DNA from: Phycomyces blakesleeanus NRRL 1555(-)
Taxonomy: Eukaryota; Mucoromycota; Mucoromycetes; Mucorales; Phycomycetaceae
Direction of reading: 5' to 3'
Assembly (NCBI RefSeq): GCF_001638985.1
Contig: NW_017265141.1
Coordinates: forward strand, 248,001-312,000
Length of the DNA: 64,000 bases
Shown: positions 8,308 to 22,490 of the stretch, piece by piece
Position numbering within the stretch: the first letter of the stretch is position 1
Layout of the letters: each line of letters starts with the position of its first letter
The notes under the pieces: model-generated
Database searches by the model: none
The model's input: the letters and a program-made list of their open reading frames with translations, nothing else
What the model was told of the DNA's origin: nothing
Position numbers and translations under genes: made by a program

Positions 8308-11300
8308 TTAATCGACACCAAGTGTCTTTTTAAGCTTTACAATCAAAGCCCAGTCTTCCTTGGACATATCGTTACGGAAGGACTGTTTCAGAACATCAAT
8401 CGACTGGCGGGTAATCTTACTGTAGAATTCGTCGGTCTCTTCGAAGTGACGACCATAGGTCTTGGGTGTCTCATATACAGCACACTCAATCTTGATGGCT
8501 ACACCACCACCAGCTTGTCCCTTCTTAACAATATCGATAGACTTGTGATTCATTTCAATAGAAGTAACCTTTCCGAGAGTATTGATTTCTCTTGCGCCAG
8601 TCTCAGAGTTTGTTTTAACTACGCAGATAGGTGTACCGACACGTAATGCGCCCTCAACAACATCAACACCGATAATAATAGGATCCTTCTTGTTGAAGAT
8701 AGCACCGGGAACCATCTTGAGCACACAGGGGAAGACAGCAGATGGTGCCTGGTCCTTACGCTTCTGCTCAGTAATGGCTGCGTTGTATTCAACGTAACGA
8801 TCGAACAAGTGGTAAATAATGTCAGCAGTGAAAACGCGGATACCGAGTTCCTCCGCCATTTCTTCAGCTTCCTTGTCAACCTTGACATCGAAACAGAGCA
8901 TGACAGCGTATTCACGTGCCTTCTCCAACATGACACTAGCCTTAACAACATCCTTTCTGTGAACAGGACCAATGTTAATACCGGAAACAGGAATCTTGGA
9001 GGTCTTGAGGAACTCCAAAAGGGCCTCGAGAGCACCAAGAGTTGAGGCCTGAACCCAAACACCATGACCACTGCGATCAATAGAGCTCATGAGGTTGGTG
9101 AGATCAGACATGACTTCTTCCTTAAGATCCTCTTCATCATCATCAGGACCACACACCAACAAACGAGAACCAGCAATAGCCTTCTCAAGATCAGGAGCAG
9201 AAATCTTTACACCCAAAGCAGCCTTGACAGACTTGTGGTGAACGTACTGAGACTTGATACGGAGTTCGCGCATAGGTTGGGGTGTAAGTAGAGCTCTGAC
9301 TTGAGTGACAATAGGTCCGTTAAGACCGCACACGACAATCTTGTCACCCTCGTGAAGCCAGCCGTTAACAAGGACAACATCGATAGTAGTACCAAGACCT
9401 TCAATAACCTTGACTTCGAGAACAGTGCACTCAAGCTCGGTAATGTACATAAGCTTGTCGCTCATGCGGCTCTGGGTCAAGTTAACCAACAAGTTGAGCA
9501 TGTCTGGGATACCTTCACCAGTGTGGGCAGAGGTGGGGACGAGCGAAACGTATTTGGCGAAGTTCTTGTTCTTATAATACAAGGTGGAGTTGAGTCCCTG
9601 TTCGGCAAAAGCTACCTGGGTCTGCTCGACACGACGCTGGAATTCATCTTGAACGGAAGGCTTCTGCTTGGCAAGAGAATCCTGGAAAGAGTTGTCGGGA
9701 ATAGCCTTCCAGTCAAAGAGACGATCGATCTTGTTAAGAGCGACAATAAAAGGTGTCTTACGGTCACGGAGGAGACGGATAGACTCGAGAGTTTGGGGCT
9801 CAAGACCGTGCATGATATCGACAACCAGAATGGCAATGTTACAGAGGGAACTTCCTCTTGTTCTCAAGTTTGTGAAAGATTCGTGACCTGGGGTATCAAT
9901 AACAAGCAAACCTGGAACCTTTACTTCTTCGGCACGATCAGGTCCAAGAACAGCAGTCTTCTTGACAATAGCGTCGGCAGGGAAGTAAGTGGCACCAATC
10001 TGCTGGGTAATACCACCAGCTTCACCTTCCTGGACGTTTGTTTGACGAATCTTATCAAGCAATTTGGTCTTTCCAGTATCTACGTGACCAAGAATACAGC
10101 AAATTGGCGAACGAAGGTCATCCTTGGATCGAGCAGCCATAGCTTCTTTTTGTCTTTGCAAGCGACGCTCAGCAGCCTCTTCCTTCTTCTGGAGGGCAAG
10201 GCGCTGGGTGGGAGTGAGCTCCTCATCAGAGCTATCATCGTCGGAATCATCGTCAGAGTCAGAGTCAGAATCGTCAGAATCGTCCTCGGAATCGTCATCT
10301 TCAGAATCGTCGGACTCTTCGGACTCACTCTCAACAACGGGCTTCTTAGCACCAGTCTTGGGCGCAGGTTTGGCGGCGGCCTTTGGTGCAGGTTTGGCAG
10401 CAGGAGCGGCTTTAGCAGCAGGAGCGGCTTTAGCAGCAGGAGCGGCTTTAGCAGCAGGAGCGGCTTTAGCAGCAGGAGCAGACTTGGCAGCAGGAGCAGG
10501 CTTGGCCTCTTCCTCTTCCTCCGAGGAAGCATCCCAATCTTCCTTCAAGTTTTCTTCTTCCTCCTTAGCTTCAGGAGTGGCCTCATCTTCACTGCTAAGA
10601 GCTGCCTTTTCCCAATCATCTTCGGCTAAAAGAATGTAATATCAAATAAGAATTTTTTTTTGCAAAATTCTCTCAAACTTACACTCTTCCTCAGCTTCAG
10701 CAGCAGCCTTCTTCTTTGCTTCTTCTTCCTCCAATCTCTTGCGTTCCTCCTCCTGTCTCTTCTTTTCCTCGTTTTCAAGACGTCTCTTTTCTTGCTCCTC
10801 CTTGGTGGGACCCTTCTTCTTCTTTCCGTAGAAAGGTTTCTTAGTTGGCTGCTCAGGGCTCTCAAAAGCAGAAATCTTAACCTGACCAGATTCGATCAAT
10901 TGCTGGTGACGGAGCTGTGCAAGTCTCTGAGCTTCCTTCTGGGCCTTTGTCAAGAGCTTGCCTTCCTTACGGAGTTGCTCGCGCTTGAGCTATTATTTCC
11001 GTAGTCAGAAAAAATCACGCCACACATATCCTTATATCAATTGTACTTACTCTTTCCTTCTCCTTCTTTGCAGCTCTGATTTCTTCCTTTCTAGCTTCCT
11101 CTTCGGCCAAAATGCGCTCCTCCTCAGCAATTCTACGAGCCTCTTCCTCAGCAATTCGGCGAGCCTCTTCTTCAGCAGCCTTTTGGGCTTCTACCATTTT
11201 CTATAATTGGGTTTAACATATATCCTTGATCTTGATACTGTCTCAAAATACTTACTCTCAAAGCAGACACTGGTCCTCCGCTCTTCTTCTTACCCTTGCC

Positions 11301-12348: not shown

Positions 12349-12707
12349 TATGAATATGTAGTTTTTAGAGTCGTTTTACGGACAATAATATGAATGTATG
12401 TATATATGAAGGCAAGCCTTGGCTAGTGCTTGAAAAGAAGGACAAAAAAACACCAAGTCAAGCGACTAATAAAAAAATCGATTTACAAGCCACGCATGCG
12501 ATGTCACGGGTAGAAATGGTCCTTGTAGTTTTTAACATCCGCTCATCTCTACTAACCACAGTGTTATCTACTACAAAATAGAGACAGCCACATTTTTCTC
12601 GAACCTGAAATAATTCGGCAGGTCCGGCACAAACTCGGTGTTGACAGACTAAAAATTCGAAAAAAAAGGTTCAAAAAAAGGGCAAAACAAGCTCATCTTG
12701 AACTTGG

Positions 12708-12716
12708 CCAATCAGA
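12708..12716 (+). promoter_or_regulatory. CCAAT box (first of a pair)
   Basis: CCAATCAGA, 360 bp upstream of the eIF5B start and 656 bp upstream of the nuclease ATG. Similar text occurs again at 12921. CCAAT boxes are bound by the HAP/NF-Y complex in fungi. Function is inferred only. Confidence 0.35.
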
Positions 12717-12920
12717 CTAATTTATTACTGACCACACCTTTCTTTAAAAAAGTGCAAAATTAGTCCAAGTACATATTAGATAAGATTGTGCTTATAAAGC
12801 CTTCCCTGTTATTATGTGAAAACCTATTTTGCGAGTTATTCTAGATATCACATTCTATGGCACATTTTTCCTATAAAAATGCTCTTTTTCTCAATTCTAA
12901 TGGCAATGGAACAATTATAG

Positions 12921-12929
12921 CCAATCAGA
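12921..12929 (+). promoter_or_regulatory. CCAAT box (second of a pair)
   Basis: Second CCAATCAGA, 443 bp upstream of the nuclease ATG, in the same orientation as the copy at 12708. Confidence 0.35.
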
Positions 12930-13371
12930 GTCGTTTCCAAATTGATCTTTTTTTTGCCCTTTTTTGCCCTTTTTTTTACCCTTTTTTTAACTTGAAACTA
13001 TCACAACTCGACACCTTTATTACACGTACTCCATTATTAAACAACTTTTTCAATAATCCGAATGACATTTATACTGGGGCTCATATTCACCCAATATTCA
13101 TCCAATATTCAGCTTGAGGAACAATTTATCAATTGATCGCAACTTTTGATTACGTCAACCCCGTGAGCACTACCTCTTGGATGTTTACCTCTTTGTTTTC
13201 TTTGTTTTCTTTTTCTTACCCTAAAGTATTTTGGCAACTCACATATCCACTGAGCTGGTAAGATTAGCTGCATAAATATAAAACGAATTCACATTGTGAA
13301 TAAATATATGACAATTGAAATGTATAGTACAAACAAACGCCATATTCGCAAGTTTGAGAAAGAATAATCGA

Positions 13372-16300
13372 ATGCGTCGAAAAAAAACGCCGCAAGAAAC
13401 TTTTTACCAAGGAGTGAACACCTTGCCGCCATCCTTTCTACAAAGTAATACCAAACGAACCTTATCCGAAAGCTTTTCAGAAGAAAGTTTCAACAAAAGA
13501 AATCGTGTAGAAGGGCCGGTGAAAGACTTGGAGGAATGCTTCTTTACTTCGATGAGAGACCGCGTAGAAGAACTTGTCAAGCAAACTAAAACTCAAGATA
13601 AAACAAATGAACTGAAAAACAAGCTCCTAAATGTAAAGACTCTACCGGCAGCAATAATAACGAACGCAGCACAACTTGCTAAGTGTGATAGAAAAGTAAT
13701 GCGCTCACATATGGAGCACCGCCCTGGGCTAAAAAATATTGAAGAATGGAAGAAGTTCGTATCTCAAAACTTCGACAAAATAGCTGAGGCTGCCGTAGGT
13801 TCGGTCGTAAAAGACACAGCTAAAGTATACTCTTCTTCCACTCCAACAAATAAACAGCCGTATGAAGAAATGAGAACGTGCACGGTCCAGATAAACAGCC
13901 TCTTTAGATCGGATCTCCCTCCTATTGTAAAGACATTCGTGTGTACTAGATTACAAGATTCGATGGTTACCTCGACAGATCATACCCTTTGCTTTTCGGC
14001 ACTCGTAAATATGATAATAAGTGAGCTGAAGACTAGCGAATTCTTCTTTGACAACAATGATATCAAGATTAAGAAAGTTCCTGGATTCAACCTCGCCAAA
14101 TTGCTGCCTTTTGTTACAATTAATGAGCCAAAACAGACCATCCAGCCATTGGACAAGGATTTAATTGCCTCTAAACGATTTGAGACGGACTTCAAGTGTC
14201 TCTTCACAAGCCAACATCTGCAAGTTGTGCATAGTTATTTTTTTGGTGCCCGTGGTGCTAAAGAAGAAAATTTAAACGCCCACCCTGTGCAGAATAGTCT
14301 GTTTTGTTCTTTCAAAGAATCCGGCCTTGATAAGCAGAGCTTCTATCTTGAGAAAGCATCATCGTCGGCAATGTCGATGGCTCTTGAAATGTACCTGGTC
14401 AACTTCGAGAATATGTGGGACGGAAAAAAGATAATTAACAAGCTTTTGGACAAAGTGGTACTAGTGCTACTTCGCCACCATCTTGCCCGCAATAGAGAAT
14501 CAAAGCGTATCTCGACCACAACAACAAGGAATCCACCTGGAAAGAAGGATATAAGAAACCATGCGCGTTATGTTTGTCGTGCAGAGGATAAAAAGCTGAA
14601 AAAGTTGGTACAAAGAAAGGAAAAGGCAAGCGGATTAGAAGAAGAAAAGTGGGCCACTAAGATAAATAGTGCGAAGCAGCGTCTAGCAAATTTAAGGCAT
14701 ACTTTTAAAAAGGTAAGGTGGGAACATTTTCATTGGCTTGAAATTGCCAGCTAATGCTTCATTTTACTTTAGAAGATAAGCCAAATGCTGAATGATAGAA
14801 AGGAAGCTTCTGTGGAGCACAAGCTCGTTGTTCAGGATTTGAACATCGCGGAAGAACAGCAAGATTTTCTGGAAGAGGAGGGGACTTTGGATGATGATGT
14901 TCCGGAAAGGAGGTTGAATCAACTCAAGTCCGTAATCAAACACTTGGTCTTCAGCAATGATACGCCTGTATATTTAGAAGATGTCAAACATCAGTCCCCT
15001 GAGGCCACCACCACCGAACAGTCAGTATGCTTGTTGATCTGCAATACGTTGATGAAGTTCTTGCCTCGGAAAAAGTAATATCACGTAATTGCGTATCAGA
15101 TGTATTTCTGTATCTTTGCAAACGACGTTCTTAAATATGCACGTTATACAAAGTTTACTCGCGCATTATGTCCTTCAACATAATTCTCGTCATTGAGTGC
15201 ACTACACCTGGATTCAGTTGCATTATATCAGCTATTGACCCAGAATATAGATCAAGAAAAGTCGGAAGAACCACCATCACATACCAACCAGCAAGAAAAG
15301 AAAGGGTATAGTAGAATGATACTCTATGGGTATAATAGGGATGAGCTGATAGGGTCTCAAGACAAAGCACGCCAAAACAAAGATGCCACATTTAACGCAG
15401 TATTTGATATGGGAGAGATTCAGAAAGCATGTGAATCGTATGGTCTATCTTTTGCACATCGGATGACATGTCTACCAGGAATGAAAACAGTACAATTATT
15501 GGGATCAAAAATAAAAACCCATGGCACCGTAAAAGAGGGGACAAAAAAGTCATATGAAGCACGGATTTTAAGAAACCCGAGCATTATGCAAGAAGGACGA
15601 AAAACAAAGGATGTTCTTTTTTCTGAGTTTCAAAGCTTAACAGAAGAAGTCAAGACGCTTGAATCTGTTCGTAAAAGAGAGCTAAATCTTCTAAAAGACA
15701 GTAACTTCCAAAGGAAAATCAAAGAATGTAAATCAAATTGGGGGACAACAGATGACAAGGATCAGTTATACCGGACGATTGAAAAATATAAAGAATCGAG
15801 ATATAAATCTTATTTGATGGTTAAAAAGATCAGAAACGAACTCGCCGAAAAAAGACAACAGCTATATTTCCGACAGATGGCAATTCGTTCCAAATCAAAG
15901 CTCCATAATGTTAAAGATGTCCCTCATGATAGCAGAAGTCCAATTGAGAAATGTGGCAAAGGTGTGACCAAGGCGGAGGACCGAACTGTTGTGAATCCTG
16001 GCGACTTTAACTATGCGGGTACTGACAATGGCCTGGTGAATATGACAACATCAATACCGATGTCATTACAAAGAATGAAATTTCACATAAAGCTTTTCAA
16101 CTATTACACCGCGTTAAGCAAGGTCTCCAATAAAGACAGTATCGGCTTGAATCTATCTAAAGAAGAAGAATCATTCCTACATTTGCCATCAGTTACAAAT
16201 ACGAAGGCTAGTGATGTTGATGTTGGCTGTGGGTATTTTCGGCAACGAAAATATTTAGAAAGACGAAAGAAGTACACGGATGAAGGGAAAAAGGTCCAGT

Positions 16301-17061
16301 TAATAGAAGATTCAATGAAAGAAATGGAGTCGGCCCCTGTTACTTCTATTGACATGGCCATCGGGAACTTTCGTGCTAAATACGATCAACGGCGAAGCCT
16401 GTGGGATTTCTACAATTCTCCAAAAATCATCAACCAAAAAAGACATGTAGAAATCCAACAACATCGTTATCGACATCATCTCTGTCGACGAGAGAGATTG
16501 GAATTGAAGCATTCAGAGAGTAATAGTTTGTTACCAATATTAGTATTATATTCGGTTTTTATTAAAGCGCATTTTTTTTGCTCAACAGATAAGTCGTCTT
16601 CTAAAAAGCCCTTGATACTCTTCATTGGTGATCGAGGAACCGGTTCCGGTTCTCGAATCAAAGGCTTTAGAAAGTATGGTGGTAAGTGGAAGCAGAAGAT
16701 ACATGAGGAAGCAGTTAATGTCTGCATCACAAATGAGTGCAAGACCTCCCAAACGTGTATATTCTGCTTTTCGCCTTTAACCAATCCGAGGATTCCTGGC
16801 AAAAAGGAAAGAAGTTACAAAGTCAACAAAGACACCTTCCTTTGTATCAATCCTCTGTGCATAACTGTCAAGAATCGATGTGCAAGTAAGCCGAGAGATG
16901 CACTTTCAGCTCTCGCCATTGGGCTGGTAGGCCTAAGCTCAGTTATGTTTGGTGCCGCACCACCTCCTTTTTATAACGTCAGCCAAATAAATGCTGAACA
17001 TTATACAAAAATAACATCTGACTTCTGTACACGAAGAGACGATTTGGCAGCTACGTTGTAG
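13372..17061 (+). CDS. TnpB/Fanzor-like RuvC nuclease, transposon-derived
   Basis: Four-exon model: 13372-14712, 14773-15074, 15198-16519 and 16589-17061 (3438 nt, 1145 aa). The C-terminal third has a split RuvC fold with a zinc ribbon. RuvC-I is AGTDNGLVNM (Asp about 824). Next is FIGDRGTGSGSRIKG (about 1000-1014), where RuvC-II is expected but with Asp not Glu. TNECKTSQTCIFC follows, giving Glu about 1038 and Cys 1045/1048, then CINPLC (Cys 1074/1079), then RDALSALAIG with RuvC-III Asp about 1092. Placing the catalytic Glu just before the zinc ribbon is the rearrangement reported for eukaryotic Fanzor proteins. Residues 1-800 are Lys/Glu-rich with no domain I recognise. Joins 1 and 2 are required by frame. 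The third (69 nt, GTAATA...CAACAG) is in frame, so a 1168-aa read-through is possible. The frame is intact. Family call is good; RNA-guided activity is inference. Confidence 0.78.
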
Positions 17062-17221
17062 CTCTGGGGGTAAATATCATTGTATAGTACCAATGCTTAT
17101 GAATTTTTAATTTATTAATTAATATTATCATTTCTTTTTTTTTTTAAAAAAAAAAGTGGCTGCCCATTTTTTGTGGGAAATAAAGGCACTCCTCTACTTA
17201 ATAGTATCGAGCTTAAATTAA
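17062..17221. other. Nuclease 3' flank up to the MITE
   Basis: AT-rich stretch after the RuvC nuclease stop. It holds a T-run/A-run tract at about 17138-17155 and a small potential hairpin (CCCA, T-rich loop, TGGG) at about 17163-17177. In TnpB and Fanzor loci the guide RNA commonly derives from the 3' end of the ORF and its downstream flank, so this is where one would look. No such RNA can be shown from sequence alone. Confidence 0.35.
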
Positions 17222-17515
17222 GAGCATTTTCAGCTGTGAGATCACTTTTAATTTATATAAAGTTAAACACCACTACTTTATCTAAATAAAAGGTCAATTT
17301 TCCCAGCAGTTCGATTTATCTTTTTCTTTAAATAAATTTTGAGAGCGTTTTTATCAATACATTTTACCTTCTTATTAAATTTAATAGGAAGATAAAAAAA
17401 GAGATTATCTTTTATATTTAAAGTGAATTTAGTTGAACTGCCGGGAGGACCAACTTTAGCTAAATATTTAAATTTAACGTAAAAGTGGAGATAAAGCGGA
17501 CTGCTGAAGATGCTC
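17222..17515. mobile_element. 294-bp fold-back MITE (PIF/Harbinger-like signature)
   Basis: The left end GAGCATTTTCAGC is the inverted complement of the right end GCTGAAGATGCTC with one mismatch in 13. Each end is flanked by TAA (17219-17221 and 17516-17518), the 3-bp TWA target-site duplication typical of PIF/Harbinger elements. A second internal inverted pair exists: CCCAGCAGTTC near 17303 and GAACTGCCGGG near 17433. A near-perfect 24-bp palindrome (CTTCTTATTAAA and its complement, 17368-17391) sits near the centre, so the element could fold along most of its length. There is no coding capacity. It lies 160 bp after the nuclease stop. Superfamily assignment rests only on the TSD and termini. 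Confidence 0.75.
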
Positions 17516-17518
17516 TAA

Positions 17519-19989: not shown

Positions 19990-21009
<1,020 letters not shown>

Positions 21010-21624: not shown

Positions 21625-22490
21625 TTACAGAATAAGGCACTTGAACCGCTTCTTTTTTGGTTTGCTGGGCATTTGCTTATTGATTTGACGTACTACATCG
21701 TAAAACACCTCGTCCACATTGATCTTGTATCTAGCTGATGTCTCATAAAAAGGTTTCCCGCCCCATTCCTGAGACAACGCCATTCCCTGTTCACGTGGGA
21801 CAGCTCTCTCTTCTTCCAAATCGCACTTGTTGCCAACTAAAACCATAGGAACCTAGTACCAAATAATGGTAACGATAAGGATATATATAAGCACAAGTAT
21901 ACACACACATATATATACAAACACACGCACACGCACACATACACATACACACGCATATATATATATATATATGTATGTATGTGTAGTTATGTGATAATAA
22001 GGTGATAGATAACAAAGGCTTACATGGTCAACATCCTTTACACGTAAGATTTGTTCTCGTAACTCGCGGAGATCCGTCAGTGTAGCCAAACTTATAATTG
22101 AGAAAACGAGAATAAAACCCTGGCCATTTTTCATATACAAATCTCTCATGGCTGTAAATTGCTCCGTACCGGCGGTGTCGAGTATCTCGAGAACACATTG
22201 CTGACCGTCAACTTCAACTTGCTTTCGGTAAGAGTCTTCAATAGTAGGGTCGTATCGTTCCACAAAGATCGATTGTACAAACTGGACAGTCTTTTTTGTT
22301 TTTGTTTTTGTTTTTGTTTTTGTTTATTTATTATTATGAAAATTAAAAAAAAAGTATTTCATATATATATATATATATATATGTAGTAGAAAATTTTTAG
22401 ACGGACTGTAATAGGATGTCAGATATAACTTACCAGGGCAGATTTACCAACACCTCCAGAACCGAGGACTACAAGTTTGTATTCTCTCAT
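21625..22490 (-). CDS. Rap1/Rsr1-type Ras-family GTPase
   Basis: Bud-site/polarity-type GTPase related to Rsr1 (Bud1) and Rap1. Model: 22434-22490, 22024-22290 and 21625-21852 (552 nt, 183 aa). It begins [19 protein letters not shown], has switch [15 protein letters not shown], switch II with Thr in [16 protein letters not shown] (Thr at the Ras Gln61 position is the Rap hallmark), [25 protein letters not shown], and a polybasic [12 protein letters not shown] tail whose final Leu predicts geranylgeranylation. Length matches Rap1 (184 residues). Intron 1 has a (TTTTTG)n array; intron 2 has CA repeats. Downstream of the stop it faces Ras, 615 bp away. Confidence 0.95.
22291..22326. repeat. (TTTTTG)n tract in Rap-type gene intron 1
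   Basis: Five to six TTTTTG units next to the exon 2 acceptor, on the + strand. Confidence 0.85.

Follow-up and report, generated by a model that had tools for sequence, protein, structure and literature searches.

A probable non-autonomous MULE-type transposon copy bearing a divergent, unusually large Fanzor-class gene in Phycomyces blakesleeanus

Three Fanzor1 families have been described in P. blakesleeanus NRRL1555 (Bao and Jurka 2013, PMC3627910), and that paper presents PBl-3, the Rhizopus element ROr-4 and the Mucor element MCi-4 as having MuDR-like inverted repeats and 9-bp duplications but no MuDR transposase. Two further sources characterize the proteins. In one, the alternative RuvC-II glutamate and a DPG motif at RuvC-I ('near exclusively') are Fanzor traits, and the canonical TnpB glutamate precedes the zinc ribbon by ~50 residues (PMC10711439); in the other, the Fanzor glutamate comes after the fifth strand and ahead of the zinc ribbon, and most Fz1 proteins have 600-700 amino acids (PMC11423790). 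Here we describe a locus in a 64,000-nucleotide stretch of P. blakesleeanus NRRL 1555(-) (contig NW_017265141.1, positions 248,001 to 312,000 of the forward strand, RefSeq assembly GCF_001638985.1; hereafter the window). This locus is probably a degraded copy of a non-autonomous DNA transposon of the Mutator-like element (MULE) type, and its sole gene would specify a divergent Fanzor-class protein of unusual size.

Compared by its description in PMC3627910, the element resembles PBl-3 in its host species, inverted repeats, 9-bp duplications, Fanzor-type protein and lack of an internal MuDR transposase, and the three genera of PBl-3, ROr-4 and MCi-4 also hold relatives of the present protein. 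Five other Fanzor-type loci inspected in the same genome have a right end unlike that of the present element, ending in CACTGTATT in three of the five. We lean towards identifying the element with PBl-3, although one of these five loci could still be PBl-3. In PMC10432273 and PMC11423790, SpuFz1, PpFz1 and GtFz1 share with the present protein the RuvC Asp-Glu-Asp triad and a glutamate that follows the fifth strand and precedes the zinc ribbon, and the N-terminal part of the predicted model matches theirs in part; the present family is larger than most Fz1 proteins (1050 to 1083 amino acids in relatives, 1186 in the open copy described below). TnpB and Cas12f/Cas12j have a similar RuvC fold and zinc ribbon, with Cas12f and Cas12j falling near the Fanzor rows in comparisons of the window open reading frame, whereas the glutamate is displaced here relative to the canonical TnpB position. 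With Mutator-like transposons the element has in common 9-bp duplications and inverted repeats, and its left end recurs at a MULE-encoding locus where no matching right end was found; unlike these transposons, it is devoid of a MULE transposase and its inverted repeats are imperfect. The protein size, the DNG motif, the N-terminal fold assignment and the CCG preference reported below were not found in the accessible portion of PMC3627910 or in a search of open-licence literature on Mucorales, Phycomyces or Rhizopus Fanzors.

Gene structure and catalytic core

A first-pass annotation of the window, made from the letters alone, had proposed an intact gene with three introns. Its start, its end and the motifs it named (the RuvC-I Asp, the GDRGTGSGSRIKG block, the Glu before CxxC...CxxxxC and the last Asp) were confirmed. 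As revised, the gene has the following parts:

13372 to 14712, plus strand: exon 1, an open frame with its ATG at 13372 and the donor GTAAGG
14713 to 14772, plus strand: intron 1 (GTAAGG...CTAAT...TTTAG; branch site and acceptor by eye)
14773 to 16519, plus strand: exon 2, with two in-frame stops in the window copy, fully open in copy L009 and with homologous protein in Mucor and Rhizopus
15076 to 15078, plus strand: in-frame stop codon 1, a sense codon in the open copy
15181 to 15183, plus strand: in-frame stop codon 2, also a sense codon in the open copy
16520 to 16588, plus strand: intron 2, the third intron of the first-pass annotation (GTAATA...CTCAACAG)
16589 to 17061, plus strand: exon 3, including the stop codon that ends at 17061
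16024 to 16026, plus strand: RuvC-I Asp codon (GTDNG)
16627 to 16665, plus strand: GDRGTGSGSRIKG block, following a core strand (model residues 477-482)
16735 to 16737, plus strand: alternative RuvC-II Glu codon (TNE)
16756 to 16860, plus strand: zinc ribbon CxxC ... CxxxxC
16897 to 16899, plus strand: RuvC-III Asp codon (RD)

A six-frame search of the 53.5-Mb P. blakesleeanus NRRL 1555(-) assembly with part of exon 2 returned 37 matched pieces, which were grouped as the window and 18 other genome places. Among nine copies whose frames were listed, only one (L009) is open, with 1186 codons and introns of 60 and 71 nt. The window copy, by contrast with its first description, is broken because of the two in-frame stops, and it should yield no full-length protein. 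Copy comparison upheld the two outer introns: the donor GT of intron 1 is retained in 11 of 16 aligned copies, the others looking decayed, and intron 2 (69 nt in the window, with length indels in other copies) is supported because its 71 nt in L009 are no multiple of 3. The middle intron (15075-15197) was rejected. This stretch is open coding sequence in L009, the proposed donor GT is missing from all 16 other aligned copies, and proteins annotated in Phycomyces, Mucor and Rhizopus contain sequence that aligns with its translation. The first-pass model, as reconstructed, is one of 84 frame-preserving splice combinations in the ranges tried. The ratio of nonsynonymous to synonymous substitution rates (dN/dS) lies between 0.37 and 0.71 (55 pairs, 11 copies), a range that reflects purifying selection on the protein in the transposing lineage; since most of the copies compared are broken, we read this as past constraint.

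Relatives were collected in three overlapping searches of 5.8 billion proteins, which returned 3, 21 and 20 proteins (32 in total). Candidates were limited by shared words and length, and the last search scored 7997 of them, so that the failure to recover known Fanzors there is weak evidence. The relatives come from Phycomyces, Rhizopus microsporus, R. delemar, R. arrhizus, Mucor velutinosus and M. circinelloides, with a Helicostylum fragment and metagenome proteins. All named ones belong to the Mucorales, in line with the family distribution first suggested, and none of the 32 carries a Pfam annotation in its row. In an alignment of 18 sequences (A2), the RuvC-I position is Asp in 17 rows and Asn in one (P0008), with the following N and G present in all 18; the alternative Glu and the RuvC-III Asp are each present in 17 rows, with a gap in the remaining one. 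None of the three acids reaches 90% in a wider alignment of 28 rows that includes fragments (A4), a shortfall put down to gaps. Across the 32 proteins, RuvC-I reads DNG in 22 and NNG in one, nine have no such motif, and DPG occurs nowhere. The Glu-to-zinc-ribbon pattern is present in 21 of the 32; those inspected among the other 11 were fragments, gene models without the region, proteins with a changed Cys (P0009, P0023) and one with a changed Glu (P0024, which has Gly in its place).

In the open copy the three acids are Asp865, Glu1079 and Asp1133, with Glu1079 six residues ahead of the first zinc-ribbon Cys. This copy also carries the motif of Bao and Jurka, D-X(125,275)-[TS]-[TS]-X-X-C4 zinc finger-X(5,50)-RD, with 216 residues between Asp865 and Thr1082, then TSQT, the C4 finger and 11 residues to RD. 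A profile of ten relatives matched the C-terminal pieces of five Fanzor-type loci from the same genome, chosen by readable frame from eight fetched loci and all above the PF07282 cut-off (probability 79, E-value 1.6e-5, 57 columns); none of 100 column shuffles did as well (best E-value 0.011), and the reversed alignment gave 0.61. Curated models did not recognize the family: no relevant Pfam family exceeded its cut-off with the exons and relatives, PF07282 being touched most often (5 of 18 members, best E-value 0.16, below threshold), and NCBIfam gave no relevant match in four proteins. Single-sequence and profile searches of the PDB matched no Fanzor, and a Fanzor-type Phycomyces piece matched SpuFz only at an E-value of 0.7.

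Predicted models gave solved Fanzors as their best structural matches, including for parts of the long N-terminal stretch. Foldseek E-values were above 0.001, the models are of moderate confidence, and structural-alignment identity to SpuFz is 12-18%. In the model of the window open reading frame, TNE518 comes after a strand (512-516), and a helix (571-589) has RD572 at or near its start; in this moderate-confidence model, both the secondary structure and the ranges that align fit those around D383/E541/D606 of SpuFz. The GDRGTGSGSRIKG block possibly corresponds to the RuvC lid. VIA-align rows other than Fanzor and Cas12, in both models, were mostly long-helix matches and were disregarded. The stretch before RuvC-I, which the first-pass annotation could not assign, is indeed large, but in the full-length model of a relative 372 residues within the range 104-929 align with solved Fanzors, so it is unassignable only in part.

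Together, the motifs, the profile match and the Fanzor/Cas12-type RuvC fold bear out the earlier suggestion of a Fanzor-class or sister family with a displaced RuvC-II Glu. Going by sequence and predicted models, we file the protein as a putative divergent Fanzor-class nuclease (i.e., a divergent subfamily or sister clade) and not as a plain Fanzor1, because DPG, a typical rather than absolute Fanzor trait, does not occur here. Its active site had been called rearranged; the Glu is displaced, but this is the usual Fanzor arrangement (PMC10711439, PMC11423790). The real departures from typical Fanzor1 are its size and the DNG at RuvC-I.

The carrier element and its insertion sites

When compared with the 18 other places by blastn, the window shows homology edges common to many copies, the remainder being truncated. 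The element is 4.6 kb long in the window and has the following features:

12556 to 17191, plus strand: whole transposon copy (MULE-type, non-autonomous, with Fanzor-class cargo), bounded by blastn homology edges refined by termini and duplications
12547 to 12555, plus strand: left 9-bp target duplication CTCTACTAA, matching the right one at 8 of 9 letters
17192 to 17200, plus strand: right 9-bp target duplication CTCTACTTA, as compared with the left one
12556 to 12590, plus strand: left terminal inverted repeat, imperfect, ~35 bp, identified by visual comparison with the reverse-complemented right end
17157 to 17191, minus strand: right terminal inverted repeat, found by eye; other copies have a GGAAATAAAGGCACTC-like end
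12539 to 12541, plus strand: the CCG favoured at insertion sites, separated by 5 nt from the left duplication, from a position-specific count over left ends
12637 to 12988, approximate ends, no strand assigned: nested high-copy repeat in the left non-coding part, with arms at 12661-12687 and 12962-12988

Target duplications were compared in the 11 copies having both ends readable. The 9-bp flanks are identical in five (L009, L011, L014, L015 and L018), become identical in L010 after a one-base shift, and agree at 6-8 of 9 letters in the window copy, L012, L020, L021 and L035. No transposase gene and no other long frame was found in the element, among the frames listed in the window and other copies. 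By appearance the carrier is a Mutator (MULE) element of the non-autonomous kind, and 'non-autonomous MULE-type' at most, since no MULE transposase lies within it. The same ends bound a derivative of ~1.05 kb (L035:121-1173), which holds other interior sequence and has no room for the Fanzor-class gene. The left end also recurs, as far as element position 80 (72-bp match, 97%), at C31:294800, and 595 bp downstream of it lies a 680-codon frame with a MULE domain; this locus yielded no matching right end, and the left ends of seven other MULE loci gave no match in the 601 bp inspected per locus.

Of 21 left ends, 13 have CCG at a distance of exactly 5 nt from the left duplication, on its outer side, and 17 have CCG or GCG no more than one base off that position; in a control on the first 15 ends, none of 5000 shuffles matched the observed counts. 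We infer that this preference belongs to the transposase, because CCG is also found at ends without the Fanzor gene. It is less likely to be a target-adjacent motif of the Fanzor-class protein, since 5 nt separate it from the duplication and since the short derivative L035, further ends whose content is unknown and, with a shift of one, the MULE locus L042 have it too. By eye, the preference is one-sided and preceded by a T/A-rich stretch, which is odd for an element with inverted repeats. At L042:3202-3789, an open frame of ~196 codons without a Pfam match lies downstream of the MULE transposase frame.

The nested repeat has complementary arms and is inverted in copy L021. Of 124 candidates, 40 were scored; at least 27 rows begin to match no earlier than element position 74, and two or three of these fall in other element copies. 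A separate ~296-bp repeat at 17221-17516 starts 30 bp right of the element; it has at least 28 nearly full-length rows, including the one in the window, and at least 72 rows overall (40 of 87 candidates scored), and it also lies inside two element copies (L013 and L021). The gene to the left, on the minus strand at 8308-10641, matches GTP_EFTU, IF-2 and EF-Tu domain 4 and is eIF5B-like. Frames on to about 12347 look by eye like its upstream exons, in which case the element would sit just upstream of this gene. Two Ras-family gene pieces are located to the right, at 20569-21009 (plus strand) and 21853-22323 (minus strand).

Guide RNA and competing explanations

By analogy with Fanzors, the Fanzor-class protein may be guided by RNA. 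The right end of the element gave no structure signal on folding (z-score 0.27), one compensatory pair of 15 in the covariation analysis and no Rfam match. In local alignment its conservation is about that of the coding sequence and lower in the last 50 bases; as a global alignment had given the 3' part of several copies a lower conservation than the coding sequence, no conclusion is drawn from this comparison. These null results neither show nor exclude an omega-RNA. Five Fanzor-type loci of this genome (L027, L029, L030, L032 and L034) have a common right end of ~50-65 bp, with 86-92% identity in several pairs, near positions 2411, 1950, 1150 (reverse), 1971 and 1962, respectively. L027 and L029 share it though nothing else matched between them. 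This common end may be a guide-RNA scaffold or a terminal repeat that the loci share.

Persistence through the cutting of unoccupied sites has been proposed for TnpB and Fanzor. In the explanation we favour, a MULE transposase would move the element in trans, recognizing its ends and preferring sites with CCG upstream. The Fanzor-class protein, for its part, would bind an element-derived RNA and cut complementary double-stranded DNA via its Asp-Glu-Asp RuvC site. Such cutting would probably help the element persist, for example if unoccupied sites are cut and repair copies the element back.

It is possible, though unlikely, that the protein has kept the Fanzor fold and lost RNA-guided cutting, serving its carrier otherwise (e.g., as a MULE accessory factor or a DNA-binding regulator). 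The silent right end, the enlarged N-terminal part, DNG in place of DPG and the presence of no other gene in the element would all suit such a role; however, proteins of Phycomyces, Rhizopus and Mucor keep the three acids and the zinc ribbon almost without exception, and the coding sequence shows purifying selection, as would be expected for an active nuclease.

Far less probable is that the 1186-amino-acid protein is itself the transposase of a non-MULE element family, with the RuvC-like domain doing strand transfer. In favour of this, no other gene was seen in the element, the predicted model has an RNase H fold, and inverted repeats and duplications are present. L035, which has the same ends and no room for the gene, points instead to a MULE acting in trans, although trans action by an open Fanzor-class copy would fit it too. 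The same left end upstream of a MULE transposase, as well as a fold and Glu position of Fanzor/TnpB type, further argue against it.

Finally, a chance RuvC-like pattern in unrelated coding sequence, with introns drawn to preserve frame, is hardly credible: the many available splice combinations and the absence of a curated family at threshold would allow it, but they are opposed by conserved motifs in relatives from three genera, an open copy, dN/dS below 1, and profile and fold matches with a shuffle control on the profile match.

The favoured reading, a degraded MULE-type copy with a Fanzor-class gene, would extend the size and sequence range of the Fanzor class beyond the reach of the curated family models tried, with proteins that can reach about 1.7 to 2 times the usual length. 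A bolder version, which we consider doubtful, is that giant Fanzor-class nucleases, marked by DNG and a larger N-terminal part, form a clade in the Mucorales that is borne by MULEs and uses a guide RNA that does not come from the right end (or none). If true, this clade would pair a nuclease of Fanzor type with a cut-and-paste DDE transposon that selects its targets with a CCG bias of its own. The defined element, its open copy and the relatives in sister species offer a test system for the guide RNA, the target motif and a possible cooperation between Fanzor-class proteins and MULE transposases.
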